From: Bacilli bacterium
Lineage (GTDB): Bacteria > Bacillota_I > Bacilli_A > RF39 > UBA660
Assembly (NCBI GenBank): GCA_022791775.1
Contig: JAAVZT010000035.1
Coordinates: 1-33,016, forward strand
Reading direction: 5' to 3'
DNA length: 33,016 nucleotides
Part shown: positions 11,442-29,152 of the stretch, in pieces
Layout of the letters: each line of letters starts with the position of its first letter
How positions within the stretch are numbered: position 1 is the first letter of the stretch
Made by a program: the position numbers and the translations under genes
Notes under the pieces: generated by a model
What the model saw: only the letters and a program-made list of their open reading frames with translations
What the model was told of the DNA's origin: nothing
Databases searched by the model: none

Positions 11442-11469
11442 AAAAAAAAGAAGGACTTACTCTTCCTCT
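11442..11469 (-). terminator. Probable ftsK terminator
   Basis: On the minus strand an AGAGGA arm pairs with TCCTTCT, with one bulged T, followed by eight T. The gene's TAA stop lies in the loop. Confidence 0.55.
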
Positions 11470-13745
11470 TTCGTTTCTAATTTGATTAAAACTTCACGTG
11501 GTTTCGAACCATTTTGTGGTCCAATAATTCCACGTTCTTCTAATAAATCTACAATTCTAGCTGCTCGGTTATAGCCTAAACGGAAACGTCGTTGTAATAA
11601 AGAAGCGCTTATTTTTCCTGTTTTTACTGCAAATTCTACTACTTCATTGTAAAGTGGATCATCATATTCTTCTGGTTCGCTTGTTGCTCCAGCTAAATGT
11701 GAATCATTTAAATTAGTTGTTAAGTTTTCATCATATTTGGCTTGTTGTTCTTTGCATACATGTTCAATCACTCTTCGAATTTCATCATCAGAAATAAAGC
11801 AACCTTGAACACGAATTGGCGTATTTTCTCCCATTGGCAAATAAAGCATATCTCCTTTTCCCAAGAGTTTCTCGCCACCAGGCATATCTAAAATGGTTCT
11901 AGAGTCGATTTGACTGGATACTGCAAAGGAAATACGAGATGGAATATTTGCTTTTACTACTCCTGTAATAACGTCGGTAGATGGCCTTTGGGTCGCAACA
12001 ATTAAATGAATCCCAGCGGCTCTAGCCATTTGTGTGATTCGCATAATGGATTCTTCTACTTCTTTACTTGCTACTAACATTAAATCAGCAAGTTCGTCAA
12101 TTACAACTAAAATATAGTGCATTTTGGGAAGTGGTGCAGAAGCATTTCCACGGTTTTGCTCATCTACCCAATCATTATATCCCCCAATATTTTTGACGCC
12201 TTTTTCAGCGAATGTATCATATCTTCGCTCCATTTCTACTACTATTTTCTGTAAAGCTAAAGAGGCTTTTTTAGGGTCTGTCACAACGGGACACAATAAA
12301 TGAGGCACGCCATTATAATTTGATAATTCTACTTTTTTAGGATCTACTAACATAATTTTGACTTGATCTGGGCGATATAACATTAGTAAAGAAGCTAACA
12401 TACTGTTTACGCAAACAGATTTACCACTTCCTGTCGATCCAGCTACCAATAAATGAGGCATTTTGGAAAGATCGGCAGTTTGAGGACGACCCATGATATC
12501 TTTTCCAAGTGCCACTAACATTTTGGCATTTTCTTGACTTTTCGGAATATTTCCTAGAATTTCTTTAATTTTAACTGGACTAATGACAGGATTCGGTATT
12601 TCTATTCCGATCGTACTTTTGCCAGGAATCGGAGCTTGAATTCGAACATCTTTTGCTGCAAGAGCTAATGCAATCTCTTTATTAATGCCGACAATACGAC
12701 TTACTTTGGTTCCTGAAGGAACTACTACTTCATATTGCGTTACACTTGGCCCCATATGAACATCAACTACTCGTCCAGCAATTTGAAAATCTTTTAATAC
12801 TCTTTCCAAATTTTGTTTATTACTAATTATAAATTGATTTGAATTTACTTTTTTGGGTTTATCTGGATTATCTAAAATATTAATACTAGGTAATTTATAA
12901 TCAGCATTTACAAAGCTAATATTTCCTTCCCCATCATCAGATGCTACTGTATTTGGTAAAATTGGGTCTTCTTTCATAACTGGTTCTGTTATTTTAGGAG
13001 AAGCAGACTCTTTTTCATAATTTCGCAATTCTTCCATACTTTGAACAACAATTCGCTCTTCTTCTTTTGATTCTTCAAATTCTTGGTCTTCTTCATAATC
13101 ATATAAGATAGGCTTTTCTGGTTTTACTCTAGGAATTCTTTCATGAGATTTTATTTTTTTGATTCCTCCACCCATATTATTTAATACATTGCCTAGATTT
13201 AAGTTAAAGATTAAAATGAACCCAAAAATAGCCATAAATGCTAATACAATATAAGTCCCTGTACTTCCAAATAAAGAAGAAGAACAAAATGCAAAGACTG
13301 CTCCAATAATTCCTCCTCCAATTACAATAGAGGTCTGTCCAGAAGAAGCTAACGCATTATTGTTACCAATTGAAGCTACCCGAGACATATAATTATCTAG
13401 TGTAGATTGAAAGATATCAGAAGCATTTTGACATTCATAAATAAACTTAAAATGACTCACAATTAAGATTGCAATGATTATAATATATATTCCTAATAAT
13501 TTAGCGCTAAAAAAATTTGGAAGCTTGCGTTTCAGCAACATATAAAATCCTAAAAATAGAAGTAAAATTAAAATGGCTGGCCACCATTCTCCAAGTAAAA
13601 ACATAGCAAATTTTTTTAGCATACTCCCCACAGGTCCAAATCCAAAGCCTATTAAACCAATTAGAATTAAAACGAGGCCTGTTAATTCTACAGAATATGT
13701 AAATTTTGATGCTTCTGAATCTTTTGTTTTTTTCTTTTTTGCCAT
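11457..13745 (-). CDS. ftsK: DNA translocase FtsK/SpoIIIE
   Basis: Membrane-anchored ATP-driven DNA pump that clears chromosome arms from the division septum (or moves the chromosome into a forespore in spore formers). It has 762 aa, close to SpoIIIE of B. subtilis. The N-terminal quarter has about four hydrophobic segments, followed by a charged linker (about residues 200-290). The RecA-like motor has Walker A GSTGSGKS (Lys442) and Walker B ILVVIDELADLM. The C-terminal winged-helix gamma domain (LLQRRFRLGYNRAARIVDLL), which reads polar sequence signals, is intact. The ATG at 13745 has GGTGG upstream and its own promoter. Downstream is the methyltransferase-rpoBC unit, separated by a terminator and a new promoter. 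Whether it acts in sporulation or only in division cannot be told from this window. Confidence 0.96.
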   Translation of the reverse strand: MAKKKKTKDSEASKFTYSVELTGLVLILIGLIGFGFGPVGSMLKKFAMFLLGEWWPAILILLLFLGFYMLLKRKLPNFFSAKLLGIYIIIIAILIVSHFKFIYECQNASDIFQSTLDNYMSRVASIGNNNALASSGQTSIVIGGGIIGAVFAFCSSSLFGSTGTYIVLAFMAIFGFILIFNLNLGNVLNNMGGGIKKIKSHERIPRVKPEKPILYDYEEDQEFEESKEEERIVVQSMEELRNYEKESASPKITEPVMKEDPILPNTVASDDGEGNISFVNADYKLPSINILDNPDKPKKVNSNQFIISNKQNLERVLKDFQIAGRVVDVHMGPSVTQYEVVVPSGTKVSRIVGINKEIALALAAKDVRIQAPIPGKSTIGIEIPNPVISPVKIKEILGNIPKSQENAKMLVALGKDIMGRPQTADLSKMPHLLVAGSTGSGKSVCVNSMLASLLMLYRPDQVKIMLVDPKKVELSNYNGVPHLLCPVVTDPKKASLALQKIVVEMERRYDTFAEKGVKNIGGYNDWVDEQNRGNASAPLPKMHYILVVIDELADLMLVASKEVEESIMRITQMARAAGIHLIVATQRPSTDVITGVVKANIPSRISFAVSSQIDSRTILDMPGGEKLLGKGDMLYLPMGENTPIRVQGCFISDDEIRRVIEHVCKEQQAKYDENLTTNLNDSHLAGATSEPEEYDDPLYNEVVEFAVKTGKISASLLQRRFRLGYNRAARIVDLLEERGIIGPQNGSKPREVLIKLETKEEE

Positions 13746-13813: not shown

Positions 13814-13834
13814 AAAAAAAAGCTAGTGTAGCTT
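13814..13834 (-). terminator. Terminator of the CDP-alcohol phosphatidyltransferase/HD gene
   Basis: Perfect 6-bp stem AAGCTA/TAGCTT with a CAC loop followed by a run of T on the minus strand. The TAG stop of the gene begins the 3' arm. Confidence 0.85.
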
Positions 13835-14902
13835 CTTCTTTAAATATTTTAAAAAATGGTGTTTGCTCATTTCTTTTTGATTTGTTATTTCGCGATGAAA
13901 TAGTAATTTTAATAACAATTTTGGATGCATAATAAAATCCATAGAATCGGCTTTATCCACAAAAGAGATCAACCAACTTTCTTTATAACACGGAAGACTT
14001 TTGTTTAAAGGAAACATATGTTTTTTGATAATATCATCAATTTTCTCATTCATGAGCTCAGGAAATATTCTCCATGCATTTTTGCGAGCTTCTTCGGCAT
14101 GCACAAAGCCATGTTTTTGTAAAAAAGGTTTTTTTTCATGAGCATTTTGCCAAGGGTGATCATAGAAATCATGTAATAATCCACCTATCGCTGCTGCTTT
14201 GTCATCCCATTTTAAACGTTTAGCAATTGTATAGGCATCAAAAGATACTCTTAACGTATGTTCATAAACAGATTCCCCTATGTGATGCATATATTCTTTT
14301 CGCTTTTGAAATTCTGGGTGAACTAAAATTGGTTTTACGTATTGAAAAAATTCTTTATAATTCTCAATTAGTCTTTTTTTTTTACTTTTCATGCTAAAAT
14401 AGCTTTTAATATAGGAAAGAAGACTACATATTTGCATAAACAATGTAAAATAGATCAAGTAGTCAATGGGAATATTCCAAGAAGAGAACATTAGATCAAA
14501 TAAACCTATTACAATGGTACTAAAAATAATCCATGTTTTTATTTTACCAATCATTAAGGAATTGGCAACGCCCTTTCTTAAATAGAAATAAAGATTTAAA
14601 AAAGCAATTATACTTTCTAAAATTAATAAATAAAAAAAGGAATGATTTTTACAAATGAGAATGATTAATAAACCTATTACTAATATTTTATCCGAAATGG
14701 CATCTAACTTTGCACCAAGTTCGCTTTCTACATGCCATCTTCTAGCAAAAAAGCCATCAAATGTATCTGTTAATGCAATTAAAATAGCTAAAATGATTAG
14801 AATTCTAATATGGCCCATTAATCCTAAATAAACTACTAATGGTGTTAAAATAATTCGAGATAATGTTAGCATATTAGGAATATGTTTTTTCAAAATTTTC
14901 AT
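13823..14902 (-). CDS. CDP-alcohol phosphatidyltransferase fused to an HD phosphohydrolase domain
   Basis: Two-domain membrane enzyme of 359 aa. Residues 1-170 form a CDP-alcohol phosphatidyltransferase (PgsA/cardiolipin-synthase-like) with several membrane helices and the complete signature DxxDGxxARx8Gx3Dx3D: Asp46, Asp49, Gly50, Ala53-Arg54, Gly63, Asp67, Asp71. After a basic linker (KSKKKR), residues from about 190 to the end form an HD-superfamily phosphohydrolase with His215, the His244-Asp245 pair in LLHDFYDHPW, a conserved KHMFPL block and a late Asp in VDKADSMD. In Firmicutes, HD proteins of this kind are usually separate genes, so the fusion is unusual. The likely first activity is transfer of a phosphatidyl group from CDP-diacylglycerol to glycerol-3-phosphate. 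Removing the resulting phosphate with the HD domain would be a logical but unproven second step. The start has a good GAGGTGA site; terminator and promoter make it monocistronic. Confidence 0.88.
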   Translation of the reverse strand: MKILKKHIPNMLTLSRIILTPLVVYLGLMGHIRILIILAILIALTDTFDGFFARRWHVESELGAKLDAISDKILVIGLLIILICKNHSFFYLLILESIIAFLNLYFYLRKGVANSLMIGKIKTWIIFSTIVIGLFDLMFSSWNIPIDYLIYFTLFMQICSLLSYIKSYFSMKSKKKRLIENYKEFFQYVKPILVHPEFQKRKEYMHHIGESVYEHTLRVSFDAYTIAKRLKWDDKAAAIGGLLHDFYDHPWQNAHEKKPFLQKHGFVHAEEARKNAWRIFPELMNEKIDDIIKKHMFPLNKSLPCYKESWLISFVDKADSMDFIMHPKLLLKLLFHREITNQKEMSKHHFLKYLKKKLH

Positions 14903-14927: not shown

Positions 14928-14956
14928 ATTATAGCAAATAAATCATTTTTTCGCAA
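14928..14956 (-). promoter_or_regulatory. Promoter of the CDP-alcohol phosphatidyltransferase/HD gene
   Basis: -35 TTGCGA (14951-14956), 17-base spacer, extended -10 TGCTATAAT (TATAAT at 14928-14933). It abuts the terminator of the preceding gene. Confidence 0.75.
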
Positions 14957-14991
14957 AATAAAAGACACTTTTATTCTATGCATGTGTCTTT
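14953..14991 (-). terminator. Terminator after the ferritin-like gene
   Basis: Eight-base stem AAAGACAC/GTGTCTTT with a 15-base loop, followed on the minus strand by TTATTTT. The TAA stop of the gene overlaps the first arm. Confidence 0.7.
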
Positions 14992-15439
14992 ATAAATATT
15001 TTTTCATTTCGTCTAAATTATGTTGTTCTGTTTTTAAAAAATGTTCCATAAGTTCCATGATTTCTTCATCGGTTCCCTCATATTCATTTTTTAATTTTGC
15101 GACTTCAATAATACCTTTATTATTTCCTTCCATCATCATTTTTGCAATTTGACTATCAGAATCATCTATTTTAGTTTTCATTTCACTCATCATTTCACTG
15201 CTTTTTTTAGCCATCGTGCCAATATGTTTTTCTTCGCAACCATATTTTTTTAAAATGCTGACTATTTGATCTCCTATTTTATCATACTCTTCTTTTTGCG
15301 AATGAAGGGTATTTCGAAATTCTTCTTGATGAGCTTTATCAATTACACTTTCAATTCCTATAGTTCCCATTTCTGCACATTGATATAATTTATTTAATAT
15401 TTTAATATCATTGTTTTCTTGCATTTCTTTTTCTTTCAT
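14990..15439 (-). CDS. Small helical ferritin-like protein, function unknown
   Basis: I chose the ATG at 15439 (MKEKEMQENN, 149 aa) because GGTGATAAT directly precedes it; the frame also opens at 15472 without a ribosome site. The protein is almost wholly helical, rich in Lys, Glu and Met, with regularly spaced acidic and histidine residues (EEFRNTLHSQKEEYDKI, LMEHFLKTEQHNLDEMKKYL). This pattern suits a four-helix bundle of the ferritin-like/DUF2383 type that may bind iron or another metal. No signal peptide or membrane segment is seen. It starts about 47 bases after the RNase J-family gene with no terminator between, so the two are probably co-transcribed. I do not recognise a named family member and assign no reaction. 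Confidence 0.6.
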   Translation of the reverse strand: MKEKEMQENNDIKILNKLYQCAEMGTIGIESVIDKAHQEEFRNTLHSQKEEYDKIGDQIVSILKKYGCEEKHIGTMAKKSSEMMSEMKTKIDDSDSQIAKMMMEGNNKGIIEVAKLKNEYEGTDEEIMELMEHFLKTEQHNLDEMKKYL

Positions 15440-15486
15440 ATTATCACCATTAATAATATGGCAATTTTGCAATATTTTATACCAAT

Positions 15487-17121
15487 TTATATTTCTTGTA
15501 CTACAGCAATAATCATGGGTTTACATTCTGTTTCGCTATATAAAAATTTACTTAATTCTGTTCTAATTTCCGTTTTAATTTTATTATATTCTACAAAAGT
15601 ATCTGTTATATTTCTTGTAATTACTTCTTCTGAAATACGTTTTATTTCACTCATCATTTCTTTAGAATCTTTTACATAAACGAATCCTCTTGTTGTTACT
15701 TCAGGACCTACTAAAATTACTTTATCTTTCTTACTGATAGTTGCACTAATTAATACTATTCCATTTTCACTTAACATTTCACGATCTTTTACTACTAACT
15801 CGCCGACATCATCACTACTTTTTCCATCAATCAGACAATCTCCTACTTTGATACTTTTAAAATTATCCAATAATTTACCATTTTCTAACTCTACTACATC
15901 TCCATTTTGTTTTAATAGGATATTTTCTGTCGGAATACCAAGGCTATTTGCTAAATTTGCATTTCCGACCATATAACGGTATTCTCCTTTCACTGGCATA
16001 TAATAAGTTGGATTTAATAACCGGATCATTAACATTAAATCTTCACTTGATGGATGATGTAATATATTACTAGTTTTTGGTAAGTTTATGATTTTGCAGC
16101 CTGCCATCGCTAAATCATTTTCAATTTTTACTAATAACTTTTCATTTGAATCATAACGCGGTTCAGCAAAACAAATTGCATCTCCCGCTTTTAAATTTAT
16201 ATATTTATCGTAACCATTAATAATTTTACTAATGGAAGCATATGGGTTTTCTTTGTCATCACAAATTAATAAAATCGAATTGCTATCTTTTATATTCGAA
16301 AGATCTCCTAATAAATCATCTGAACAGGTTAAATATCCTTCTTTTCTGCCAAATTGGATGACATTTTGAAGTTTTTTTCCCATTACTACAATTTTACGAT
16401 GGGAATTTTCTGCCCCGCTTAAAATATCTTGAATGGTATATAGATGAGTTGGCAAAACAGAAAACATAATTCTACCCTCTTGTTTATTTATAATATCTTT
16501 AAAAAAGTCTTCTAAACGGTGAGTTGGAGAGGTATGGCCAATATGCTCTGAGAAACTTGACTCTGATAACAGACATAAGACGCCCAATTTTCCAATATAA
16601 GCGATTTTCCCTAAGTCCATTCCGTATGCTCCTGCCATTTTAGGATCTATGATAAAGTCACCCGTATAGCAAATTGCTCCATCTTTGGTGTTCATAACAT
16701 ACATGACAGCATCAGGACAACTATGACTCATACTGATTGGAAAAATACTTACCCGTCCAAAATTTAATTTTTTATGGGGAACTATCTCCACAATATTTTT
16801 TTCTGGTACACCACTTTCTAAAAGTACGTACTTCGTAAATTTTGTTGCATATAGCTTTATGTCTGGTATGATTTTTACTAAATCAGATGCCCCACCCATA
16901 TTTTCATAATGTCCATGGGTCAAAAATACGCCTTTAATTCTTTTTTTATTTTTTTCTAAATATTCAAAATCAGGAATAATGTAATCTATCCCAAAAGAAG
17001 TTCCTGTTGCATATTTTAAACCACAATCAAAAACAAATAAGTCTTTATCTACTTCAATGCAATATGTGTTTTTTCCTGATTCATCTAATCCACCCAAACT
17101 AAAAATTTTTATTTTACTCAT
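15487..17121 (-). CDS. RNase J-family metallo-beta-lactamase/beta-CASP protein with a degenerate metal site
   Basis: Collinear with RNase J over 544 aa (start SKIKIFSLGGLDESGKNTY; end of the C-terminal domain VQEI). RNase J normally acts in mRNA decay as a 5' exonuclease and endonuclease with two metal ions held by HxHxDH and further His/Asp residues. Here motif II reads His69-Gly-His71-Tyr-Glu73-Asn74, so the usual Asp and last His are replaced. Motif III His133 and motif IV Asp155 remain. The HVSGH-type motif is NILHH (Asn352 in place of the first His, His356 kept) and the later PVHGEYR is PVKGEYR (Lys378). It is most likely a non-catalytic or weak J2-type partner of an RNase J1 encoded elsewhere. 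Beginning with a weak ribosome site, it has a good promoter and precedes a ferritin-like gene. Confidence 0.88.
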   Translation of the reverse strand: MSKIKIFSLGGLDESGKNTYCIEVDKDLFVFDCGLKYATGTSFGIDYIIPDFEYLEKNKKRIKGVFLTHGHYENMGGASDLVKIIPDIKLYATKFTKYVLLESGVPEKNIVEIVPHKKLNFGRVSIFPISMSHSCPDAVMYVMNTKDGAICYTGDFIIDPKMAGAYGMDLGKIAYIGKLGVLCLLSESSFSEHIGHTSPTHRLEDFFKDIINKQEGRIMFSVLPTHLYTIQDILSGAENSHRKIVVMGKKLQNVIQFGRKEGYLTCSDDLLGDLSNIKDSNSILLICDDKENPYASISKIINGYDKYINLKAGDAICFAEPRYDSNEKLLVKIENDLAMAGCKIINLPKTSNILHHPSSEDLMLMIRLLNPTYYMPVKGEYRYMVGNANLANSLGIPTENILLKQNGDVVELENGKLLDNFKSIKVGDCLIDGKSSDDVGELVVKDREMLSENGIVLISATISKKDKVILVGPEVTTRGFVYVKDSKEMMSEIKRISEEVITRNITDTFVEYNKIKTEIRTELSKFLYSETECKPMIIAVVQEI

Positions 17122-26194: not shown

Positions 26195-26226
26195 AAAAAG
26201 AATCATTTTTTAATCTGATTCTTTTT
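26195..26226. terminator. Terminator of the phosphoketolase unit
   Basis: Stem AAGAATCA/TGATTCTT with a 10-base loop, flanked by A and T runs on both sides. The TGA stop of the last gene lies in the stem. Confidence 0.78.
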
Positions 26227-26799
26227 TTTTCGTAATTTTTTTAAATATTCTTTTAAATCTTTTGCCATTTTTTTTTCAATTAATTTCACATCCGTAATTG
26301 GAATTTTTATTTCATAATTCTCAATTTCTGATTTTTTTATTTCTCGATAGCAAATTTTATAATCTTCTATTTTTAAACCAAGATAAACTTTTTTTAATTC
26401 CAATGGCTCAGTTAATAAATTGGGATAAAATAATTTATATGTATTGTTTTGGAATTCGATTTGAAATAAAGCTAATCTTTCATATGGCATATCTAGTTTA
26501 ATGGCCGTTAAAATTTTAGGTAATTTGAAGTCAAAGCAAGCTAATGCAAAATCTGGAATACCAGCATAAAAAATGGGTTTTTTAAGACCATATGAAATAA
26601 AAGGCTCGGGACTTGAAATCATACTCTCTTCTATTATTTTATCTATGCTTTCTTCATCTTTAATAAAATATATGCCTTTTGTTGCTCGTTTGATAATTTC
26701 ATTTTTTAAGATACTTTTGACTTTCAAAGTTGGTTGAAGAACAGGATTTACTAAAAAATTTGCCTTCAAATATAATTCTTCAATTATCACAACTATCAC
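26203..26799 (-). CDS. Hypothetical protein overlapping xfp
   Basis: Up to 198 aa; unrecognised. It overlaps the end of the phosphoketolase gene by 20 bases. The start is uncertain: the frame opens with GTG codons at 26799 and 26790 and a TTG a little later, none with a good ribosome site, so translation may depend on coupling to xfp. The sequence mixes alternating hydrophobic strands ([39 protein letters not shown]) with a very basic C-terminal helix ([20 protein letters not shown]). No signal peptide or membrane helix is evident. A beta-rich ligand or RNA-binding protein is conceivable but not shown. It is the last gene before the terminator. Confidence 0.6.
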
Positions 26800-29152
26800 T
26801 TGTCCAATTCCACTGACGTATTTCTTCCATATCTATTCCATATTCTTTAATATATTGATGATGCTTTTCTAACATTTCATCACAATAAACTATTGTTTTT
26901 TCTTTATTTGAAGTTTCTACATGTTCTAATACTAGCTTTGTTAAATGATAACGATCTAACTTATTTAATACTCGCATATCAAAAGGTGTCGTGATCGTAC
27001 CTTCTTCTATATATCCGCGGACATGCATGTTTTGATTTGCTCTTTTATATGTTAATTCATGAATCACATTTGGATATCCATGAAAAGCAAAAATAATAGG
27101 TTTATTTAGAGTAAAAATCATATTGTATTCTTCATCTGTTAATCCATGAGGATGATTTTGTTTGGGTTCTAAACGCATTAAGTCTACAACATTTACTACT
27201 CTAATTTTTAATTCTTTACAAAATTTTCGCAAAATGGTTACACATGCTAGTATTTCTAATGTAGGAGTATCCCCAGCACAAGCTAAGACAACATCAGGCT
27301 CGCTTCCTTGATCATTACTTGCAAACTCCCATATTCCGATTCCTTGTTTACAATGTTGCATTGCTTGGCGCATTGTGAGCCATTGTGGCCTAGGATGTTT
27401 ACTGGCAATGATCAAATTAATATAATTTTCAGAACGAATACAGTGATCAAAGCAAGAAAGAAGACAATTTGCATCTGGTGGAAGATAAATTCTTACTGTA
27501 TCTGCTTTTTTAGTTAATAAATGATTTATAAATCCTGGATCTTGATGAGTATATCCATTATGATCTTGTTGCCATGCATGACTAGAAAGCAGAATATTTA
27601 AAGATGGAACTTTTTTTCGCCAAGATATTTCATTAGCCATTTTTAGCCATTTAGCATGTTGGCCTACCATAGAGTCGACAATCCGAATAAATGATTCATA
27701 ACTGTGAATAAAACCGTATCTCCCAGTCAATATATATCCTTCTAATAATCCCTCGCATACATGTTCGGATAATATAGAATCAATAATTCTTCCTTTATGC
27801 GATAAAAATTCATCTGTTTCATATATTTGAGCTAACCATTGGCGATTGGTAACCTCAAAAGCTGAATTTAATCGATTAGACAATGTTTCATCAGGTCCAA
27901 AAATACGAAAATTATTTTGATCTTGGTTCTTTGCAATAATTTCTTTTACAAAACTCCCTAGTACTCGCATATCTTCTTTTTGAATACAACCAGGATTTTC
28001 AACTTCTACTTTAAAATCCCAATAATTCGGCATATCTAATTGTTTTTTTTCTTTTCCACCATTTGCGTGAGGATTCGCTCCCATTCGAAATTCACCATTT
28101 GGCGCTAATTCTTTTAATTCTGATTTTAATTTTCCTTTTTGATCAAAAAGTTCTTCTGGCCGATAACTTTTTAACCAATTTTCTAATCTTGCCAGTGATT
28201 CAGGATGTTCTTTTGTTACTTCAATTGGAACTTGATGAGCTCGAAATGAACCTTCAATTATTTTCCCGTCAATCATTTTGGGACCTGTCCAACCTTTTGG
28301 AGTACGTAGTACAAGCATCGGCCATAATGGACGCGTAGAATCTTTTCCATTACGGGCATTGGTTTGAATCAATTTTATTTTTTCGACTATTTCATCTAAT
28401 GCTGAGGCCATTTTTTCATGCATCTCAAATGGGTCCTCACCTTCTACATAAAATGGTATCCAGCCATAACCACGTAAAAGAGCATCTAATTCTTCTTTAC
28501 TAATTCTAGCTAAAATAGTTGGATTAGCAATTTTATATCCATTTAAATGAAGAATTGGAAGCACTACACCATCTTCTATCGGATTTAAAAATTTATTTAT
28601 ATGCCAGCTGGTTGCTAAAGGCCCGGTTTCTGCTTCGCCATCTCCAATTACACAAGCAGCGATCAAAGTAGGATTATCTAAAACTGCTCCAAAAGCGTGA
28701 GATAAACTATAACCTAGTTCTCCTCCCTCATTAATACTTCCTGGCGTTTCTGGTGTGGCATGACTTCCAATACCACCTGGAAAACTAAATTGCTTACAGA
28801 GTTTTCTTAAGCCTTCTTCATCTTCTGTAATATCTGGATAAAATTCTGAATAGGAACCTTCCAAATAAGTGTTTGAAACTGGAGCTTGGCCGCCATGTCC
28901 TGGACCACATATATAAATCATATTTAGATCAAACTTTTTGATAATTCGATTTAAGTGTACATAAATAAAATTTTGTCCTGGTACTGACCCCCAATGACCA
29001 ACTAATTTTTTTTTGATATCATCAAATGTCAAAGGTCTTTTTAATAAAGGATTGTCTTTTAAATAAAGTTGCGCACATGATAAATAATTGGCTGCGCGCC
29101 AGTAAGCATCCATTTTATATTTTAAATCTTCTGTTAAAATTTTTTCTTTCAT
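26780..29152 (-). CDS. xfp: Xylulose-5-phosphate/fructose-6-phosphate phosphoketolase
   Basis: Thiamine-diphosphate enzyme that splits xylulose-5-phosphate (and often fructose-6-phosphate) with phosphate to acetyl phosphate plus glyceraldehyde-3-phosphate (or erythrose-4-phosphate). At 790 aa it is the standard length. Hallmarks: YICGPGHGG near residue 80, the substrate loop [14 protein letters not shown], cofactor motif [14 protein letters not shown], the second-domain [20 protein letters not shown] and [11 protein letters not shown], and ending NWTSD. It points to pentose or heterolactic-type fermentation giving acetyl phosphate for ATP. The start has an AGGGGAATC ribosome site and a promoter with a perfect -10 box. 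A small unknown gene overlaps its 3' end; no acetate kinase or transketolase lies nearby. Confidence 0.98.

Follow-up and report, generated by a model that had tools for sequence, protein, structure and literature searches.

A fused CDP-alcohol phosphatidyltransferase and HD phosphohydrolase gene with a candidate slippage site at its linker in a family of small-genome Bacilli

A gene that joins a CDP-alcohol phosphatidyltransferase to an HD phosphohydrolase raises the question of whether two consecutive steps of phosphatidylglycerol (PG) synthesis have been brought together in one protein. An initial annotation of the window, by which is meant the whole stretch of 33,016 nucleotides analysed, had proposed exactly this, with the transferase making phosphatidylglycerol phosphate (PGP) and the HD domain then removing its phosphate. 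The gene itself, the origin of its two halves, the other lipid genes of the genomes that carry it and the linker between its domains were considered.

Architecture and distribution of the fused gene

The single unbroken frame that had been reported at 13823..14902 was confirmed and assigned to the minus strand, where it runs from an ATG (14902 end) to a stop and encodes 359 aa; the plus strand across the same interval contains many stops. A promoter-like sequence (TTGCGA, 17 bp and TATAAT with TGC before it; 14928..14956, minus strand) was read by eye ahead of the gene, as was a ribosome-site-like GAGGTG between this sequence and the ATG. The gene fuses a CDP-diacylglycerol-alcohol transferase of six helices, which is a second paralogue resembling PgsA, to a cytosolic-type HD phosphohydrolase. 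Residues 7-145 (14465..14884, minus strand) make up a CDP-alcohol phosphatidyltransferase domain of second-paralogue type, as judged from PF01066 (E 3e-22), the paralogue tree and a fold match to 7drk, and the complete signature described earlier for residues 46-71 was recovered by the motif scan as DTFDGFFARRWHVESELGAKLDAISD, a full D..DG..AR........G...D...D (D46..D49-G50..A53-R54........G63...D67...D71; 14690..14767, minus strand). Membership of the CDP-alcohol phosphatidyltransferase superfamily is given by this motif in a helical membrane protein and by the score above the gathering cut-off. Residues 212-318 (13949..14269, minus strand) make up the HD phosphohydrolase domain (PF01966, E 1.5e-8, likewise above the Pfam gathering score), which was placed in the HD superfamily by its H...HD...D metal site and its fold. 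The metal site, for which only His215 and His244-Asp245 had been named, is complete and larger than that, as 37 aligned sequences showed no variation at H207, H215, H244, D245, H268, H295 and D316, H207 sitting just before the start of the PF01966 match. An AlphaFold2 model of the whole protein (pLDDT 93.7) gave matches to PGP synthase (7drk, Z 16.4) and PIP synthase for residues ~1-175, and to the HD hydrolases 2pq7, PgpH (4s1c) and YqeK for residues ~180-343. No paper describing a transferase-HD fusion was found in a literature search.

The two-domain reading was upheld by the recurrence of the same fusion, as a single open frame with conserved neighbours, in 10 other genomes (44-54% identity), and because these belong to one clade the fusion is neither a chance event nor an assembly error. 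Among 146 genomes of the order, it is intact in eight, from three genera (g1, g35 and g58). A scan of GTDB contigs added the intact loci L001, L002 and L006, two that are cut by contig ends (L003 and L004) and one, L005, that is out of frame at the join; the locus L051 of genome G113 is out of frame at the same place. Outside the family, no fusion was found at E<=1e-25 in a non-exhaustive sample of 395 genomes of the class. In the window the gene is followed downstream by a gene for an FtsK/SpoIIIE-type DNA translocase (11457..13745, minus strand; named from sequence) and preceded upstream by genes for a DUF2383 protein (14990..15472, minus strand; PF09537 and synteny) and an RNase J-like protein (15487..17121, minus strand; named from sequence). 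The setting common to the fused loci is the same, with the RNase J-like gene and the DUF2383 gene each upstream in nearly all of them and usually ftsK, the FtsK/SpoIIIE-type gene lying downstream in most of the other loci. In the tree of transferase halves, the 14 fused rows are set apart by one branch (support 98/97), and in that of the HD halves the 12 fused rows share one branch (support 100/97) nested among standalone HD genes. Both sequence trees are consistent with a fusion that arose once, within a single family-level group of Bacilli with small genomes, when a standalone HD gene was joined to the transferase paralogue.

The transferase half and the PgsA-slot gene

The transferase half falls, in the paralogue tree, within a second lineage of PgsA-like proteins apart from canonical PgsA, which in relatives is encoded between an HTH_25 gene and recA. 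Whereas the canonical PgsA of two relatives scored 140.6 and 158.8 bits, over the pgsA cut-off, the fused protein reached only 76.8 bits against TIGR00560, the PgsA equivalog, for which the curated cut-off is 109.1. A second difference was seen in helix 4, where canonical PgsA of the order and S. aureus PgsA carry R[DE]......[LI][RK], unlike the fused proteins and almost every other member of their lineage, in which an aliphatic residue and Asn, typically as LE......LN, take the place of the Arg and the Arg/Lys. This Arg/Lys pair presumably binds the acceptor phosphate in PgsA. As these residues are absent and the score lies below the pgsA cut-off, the acceptor of the fused transferase may be something other than glycerol-3-phosphate. 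Second-lineage paralogues were found alongside an intact PgsA in most genomes searched, and the fused genomes of g35 and g58 contain both transferase lineages; as both enzymes are present in these other fused genomes, the fused transferase there has a different job or is redundant. The candidate role of single housekeeping PgsA was rejected for the fused protein when PF01066 searches gave a separate canonical PgsA in the other fused genomes, a view revised for G000, the genome of the window, whose own copy lacks the motif. That of a replacement cardiolipin synthase was rejected because a PLD-type cardiolipin synthase (Cls) is also encoded in G000 and in several fused genomes. G134 encodes a further CDP-alcohol transferase (L107:1822-2931), whose C-terminal extension of ~220 aa has no Pfam match.

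PgsA ordinarily belongs to the core set of conserved enzymes. In G000 (C29), the frame that occupies the PgsA slot between HTH_25 and recA (L133:7175-7765, minus strand; 196 aa) gave no PF01066 match; its pgsA match, of 39 bits, covers the second half of the protein, and its D..DG..AR..G...D...D motif is replaced. The same kind of protein is encoded by open frames in the PgsA slots of G487 and G488 (L140 and L141), the genomes of L003 and L004, with 53-62% identity to that of G000, the G488 frame being cut by a contig end. Because the second codon positions of the three genes differ far less (17-19%) than the third positions (44-52%), purifying selection on a PgsA-slot protein without the catalytic motif is indicated in these three genomes. 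To judge by its sequence, the PgsA of the window's lineage appears to be catalytically dead. No other transferase of PgsA type was found in G000 and G487 besides the fused one, the second match of G000 being PssA-like and adjoining Psd. The phosphatidylethanolamine pathway is represented in that genome by a pssA-like gene overlapping psd (L106:7178-8616).

The fused transferase is thus the only PGP synthase candidate in the G000 assembly, which is 91% complete. As YqeG and Cls are kept in G000, PG is probably still made there, and with the catalytic motif gone from the PgsA-slot gene, PGP synthesis in the window's lineage of three genomes is probably carried out by the fused paralogue, though the helix-4 difference argues for caution. 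The suggestion that the first domain makes PGP was consequently found plausible for this lineage, where G000 and its two nearest relatives have lost the PgsA motif and YqeG and Cls are kept, and weakened by the score below the pgsA cut-off and the absence of the helix-4 pair. It could instead be that the acceptor is not glycerol-3-phosphate and that PG is no longer made via PGP in this lineage. Such an interpretation would explain why almost all members of the paralogue family have an aliphatic residue and Asn in place of the helix-4 Arg and Arg/Lys, and would suit the coexistence of the paralogue with an intact PgsA in most genomes searched, yet it was considered unlikely, if by no means negligible, as G000 has kept YqeG and Cls despite the loss of the PgsA motif and PGP synthase is the closest match in both sequence and fold.

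The HD half and the PGP phosphatase question

Had the HD domain been the missing phosphatase that makes PG, as was proposed, the genomes with the fusion might have been expected to lack a dedicated enzyme for this step. They do not, since every fused genome searched encodes, by homology, a YqeG-family protein above the cut-off. In G000 this protein scored 95.5 bits against TIGR01668 (cut-off 89.1) and 35.2 bits against PF09419, PGP_phosphatase (cut-off 20.4), and a PAP2 phosphatase is present as well. The physiological role of YqeG in B. subtilis was left undetermined (PMC5080769). In Pfam and NCBIfam scans, the fused protein itself gave no match to the models of known PGP phosphatases (PgpA, PgpB/PAP2 and YqeG). 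On the refuting condition set in the initial annotation itself, and at the level of homology, the candidate role of missing PGP phosphatase was accordingly rejected because of the YqeG of all fused genomes searched; the HD hydrolase probably does not fill that role, and its action as a redundant PGP phosphatase is unlikely. In one genus (G053 and G116; L108 and L109), an unfused second-lineage transferase was observed within ~2 kb of a YqeG gene, and a functional link between the two is possible.

The origin of the HD half bears on the same question. Its close relative is a standalone gene of ~165-210 aa, present in many genomes of the order, which adjoins mnmE in the oriC cluster in 13 of the loci read and normally lies between jag and mnmE. 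No second close HD copy was found in the fused genomes among the matches listed, and for this reason the fused HD looks like a relocated copy of the standalone gene, whose job it presumably still does. The idea of two consecutive lipid steps in one protein sits poorly with a domain that stems from a standalone gene away from lipid genes. What speaks for coupled PGP synthesis and dephosphorylation is that the domains are adjacent, that the di-metal HD site is complete and that the transferase is probably the PGP synthase of its lineage. Set against the YqeG scores in G000 and all fused genomes searched, the PAP2 protein of G000, the descent of the HD half from an oriC-cluster gene of many relatives and the folds of the known PGP phosphatases (PgpA, PgpB, PgpC and YqeG/Gep4), none of which is known to be an HD protein, this model was judged very improbable.

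A substrate for the HD domain was also sought. Assignment as YqeK was rejected at 19.6 bits against TIGR00488 (cut-off 70.15), and YqeK, an Ap4A hydrolase, was above the cut-off in none of the 15 genomes searched within the order. The comparison with PgpH, which has a 7TM-HD architecture, concerns the fold of the HD part only (Z 11.8), the membrane part being here a CDP-alcohol transferase. No hint of a substrate came from the genes next to the standalone HD gene (jag and mnmE), next to the second HD paralogue or next to the HD gene in a different family of the class. Judged from fold only, a nucleotide-type substrate would be most likely. Standalone relatives of the HD gene in that other family (L150 and L153) were observed near genes that, in size and order only, resemble the S10 ribosomal operon.

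The poly-A run at the linker and its known counterparts

The longest A/T homopolymer of the window, an A10 run on the minus strand (T10 on the plus strand; 14374..14383), lies at the linker between the two domains and is a candidate slippage site. Runs of A9-A11 were found at the linker in 11 of the 14 fused genes, at gene nucleotides 509-531, nine of the 14 having A10 or A11. The run is missing from three fused genes, namely L003, the nearest relative with a readable linker, which has A5 only, and L050 and L001. The comparison set, 251,676 nt of further coding DNA taken from loci in the same genomes, contained five runs of at least nine A and none of at least ten. Three more T9 runs were seen on the plus strand of the window (26222-26230, 26268-26276 and 29006-29014).

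The run might have no function and simply reflect the many Lys codons of the linker and the AT-richness of the genome, in which case L005 and L051 would represent frameshift errors or decaying genes. The linker is indeed Lys-rich, AAA is the preferred Lys codon (6890 AAA and 1134 AAG) and three fused genes do without the run, but of 738 Lys-Lys blocks counted in these genomes no more than 5 extend to A9, and A10 is not reached in any. Linker runs were correspondingly in excess over Lys-Lys blocks (Fisher p 1.5e-18) and over blocks of at least three Lys (1.5e-8), these p-values being optimistic owing to relatedness, and a simple rate model in which three clades each have at least one run gave ~6e-9. 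Furthermore, the run persists in codon phases 0, 1 and 2 and amid varying surrounding residues, and it is rare elsewhere, occurring in 1 of 17 unfused paralogues and in none of 13 pgsA-slot genes. A by-product of composition was therefore given only a small chance of being the right explanation.

The pattern sought in genes with programmed transcriptional slippage, at least nine A at a conserved place and beyond background, was found in 11 of the 14 genes. In the fused genes that are in frame, a slip at the run would lead to a stop within 0-9 codons. The opposite arrangement was seen in L005 and L051, from sister genomes that share an A11 run at the linker (L005:3780-3790 in the former), where the frame stops right after the run and a complete HD domain goes on in another frame. 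These sequence features suggest transcriptional slippage or phase variation, either of which would yield two products from one gene, and the A run is probably a slippage site at the junction of the two domains. The chief rival to transcriptional slippage is phase variation, in which slippage during DNA replication would alter the length of the run, so that the HD domain would be on in some cells and off in others, with A11 in L005 and G113 as the off state. Two sister genomes out of frame at the run would accord with this, and homopolymers of this kind should be hypermutable (PMC1088944), but the remaining fused genes are in frame and the two exceptions are sisters sharing A11, as for a fixed state, in consensus sequences of metagenome-assembled genomes, which hide mixed run lengths. 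Phase variation was regarded as improbable on this balance.

A joint explanation, given slightly less than an even chance, would combine transcriptional slippage with the displacement of PgsA. The fused transferase would have taken over PGP synthesis in the window's lineage, and YqeG would remove the phosphate from PGP. The HD domain would keep the older job of the standalone gene, that of a YqeK/PgpH-like di-metal phosphohydrolase, now at the membrane. RNA polymerase would slip at the A9-A11 run of the linker, such that one gene would provide both the transferase alone and the transferase-HD fusion; in L005 and L051, with the run out of register, a slip would be required for any fusion to be produced. 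The further proposition that a slippery linker is maintained for two products and that the replaced PgsA is kept as a conserved membrane pseudoenzyme is more doubtful and is put forward tentatively.

The locus is of more interest for its probable slippage site and the apparent displacement of a dead PgsA than for the coupling first proposed. Loss of the PgsA motif beside a retained fused paralogue offers an example of the displacement of a core enzyme of lipid synthesis, and the poly-A run, if a true slippage site, would bring a lipid enzyme into the set of cellular genes for which transcriptional slippage has been predicted. It is also a caution that a domain fusion does not amount to a two-step pathway unless the second step has been checked as uncovered elsewhere.

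Among known systems, PgsA (TIGR00560; S. aureus 7drj/7drk) gives the N-terminal half its best sequence match and one of its best structure matches, sharing the fold and the complete D..DG..AR...G...D...D motif. The fused transferase differs in scoring below the cut-off, in forming a clade separate from the PgsA of the same genomes, in having no helix-4 Arg/Lys pair, in lying outside the pgsA-recA locus and in carrying an HD domain. YqeK, PgpH (a c-di-AMP phosphodiesterase) and 2pq7 have the HD fold and the conserved His/Asp metal site in common with the fused HD domain, which is nevertheless far below the YqeK cut-off and joined to a lipid transferase. The YqeG/Gep4-type PGP phosphatase (TIGR01668, PF09419), the expected next enzyme of the pathway and present in G000, is unlike the fused HD domain in its HAD fold and in being a separate gene elsewhere in the genome, its bacterial function being assigned by homology. 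For the linker, the nearest parallel is dnaX of Thermus thermophilus, whose A9 slippage site gives ~50% short product (PMC1088944). Both genes have at least nine A at the join of two parts and stops soon after in the other frames, but slippage in dnaX gives long and short subunits, whereas in the fused gene it is only predicted. The long product of Shigella mxiE depends on a slip (PMC1088944), and the same is predicted for the two relatives represented by L005 and L051.
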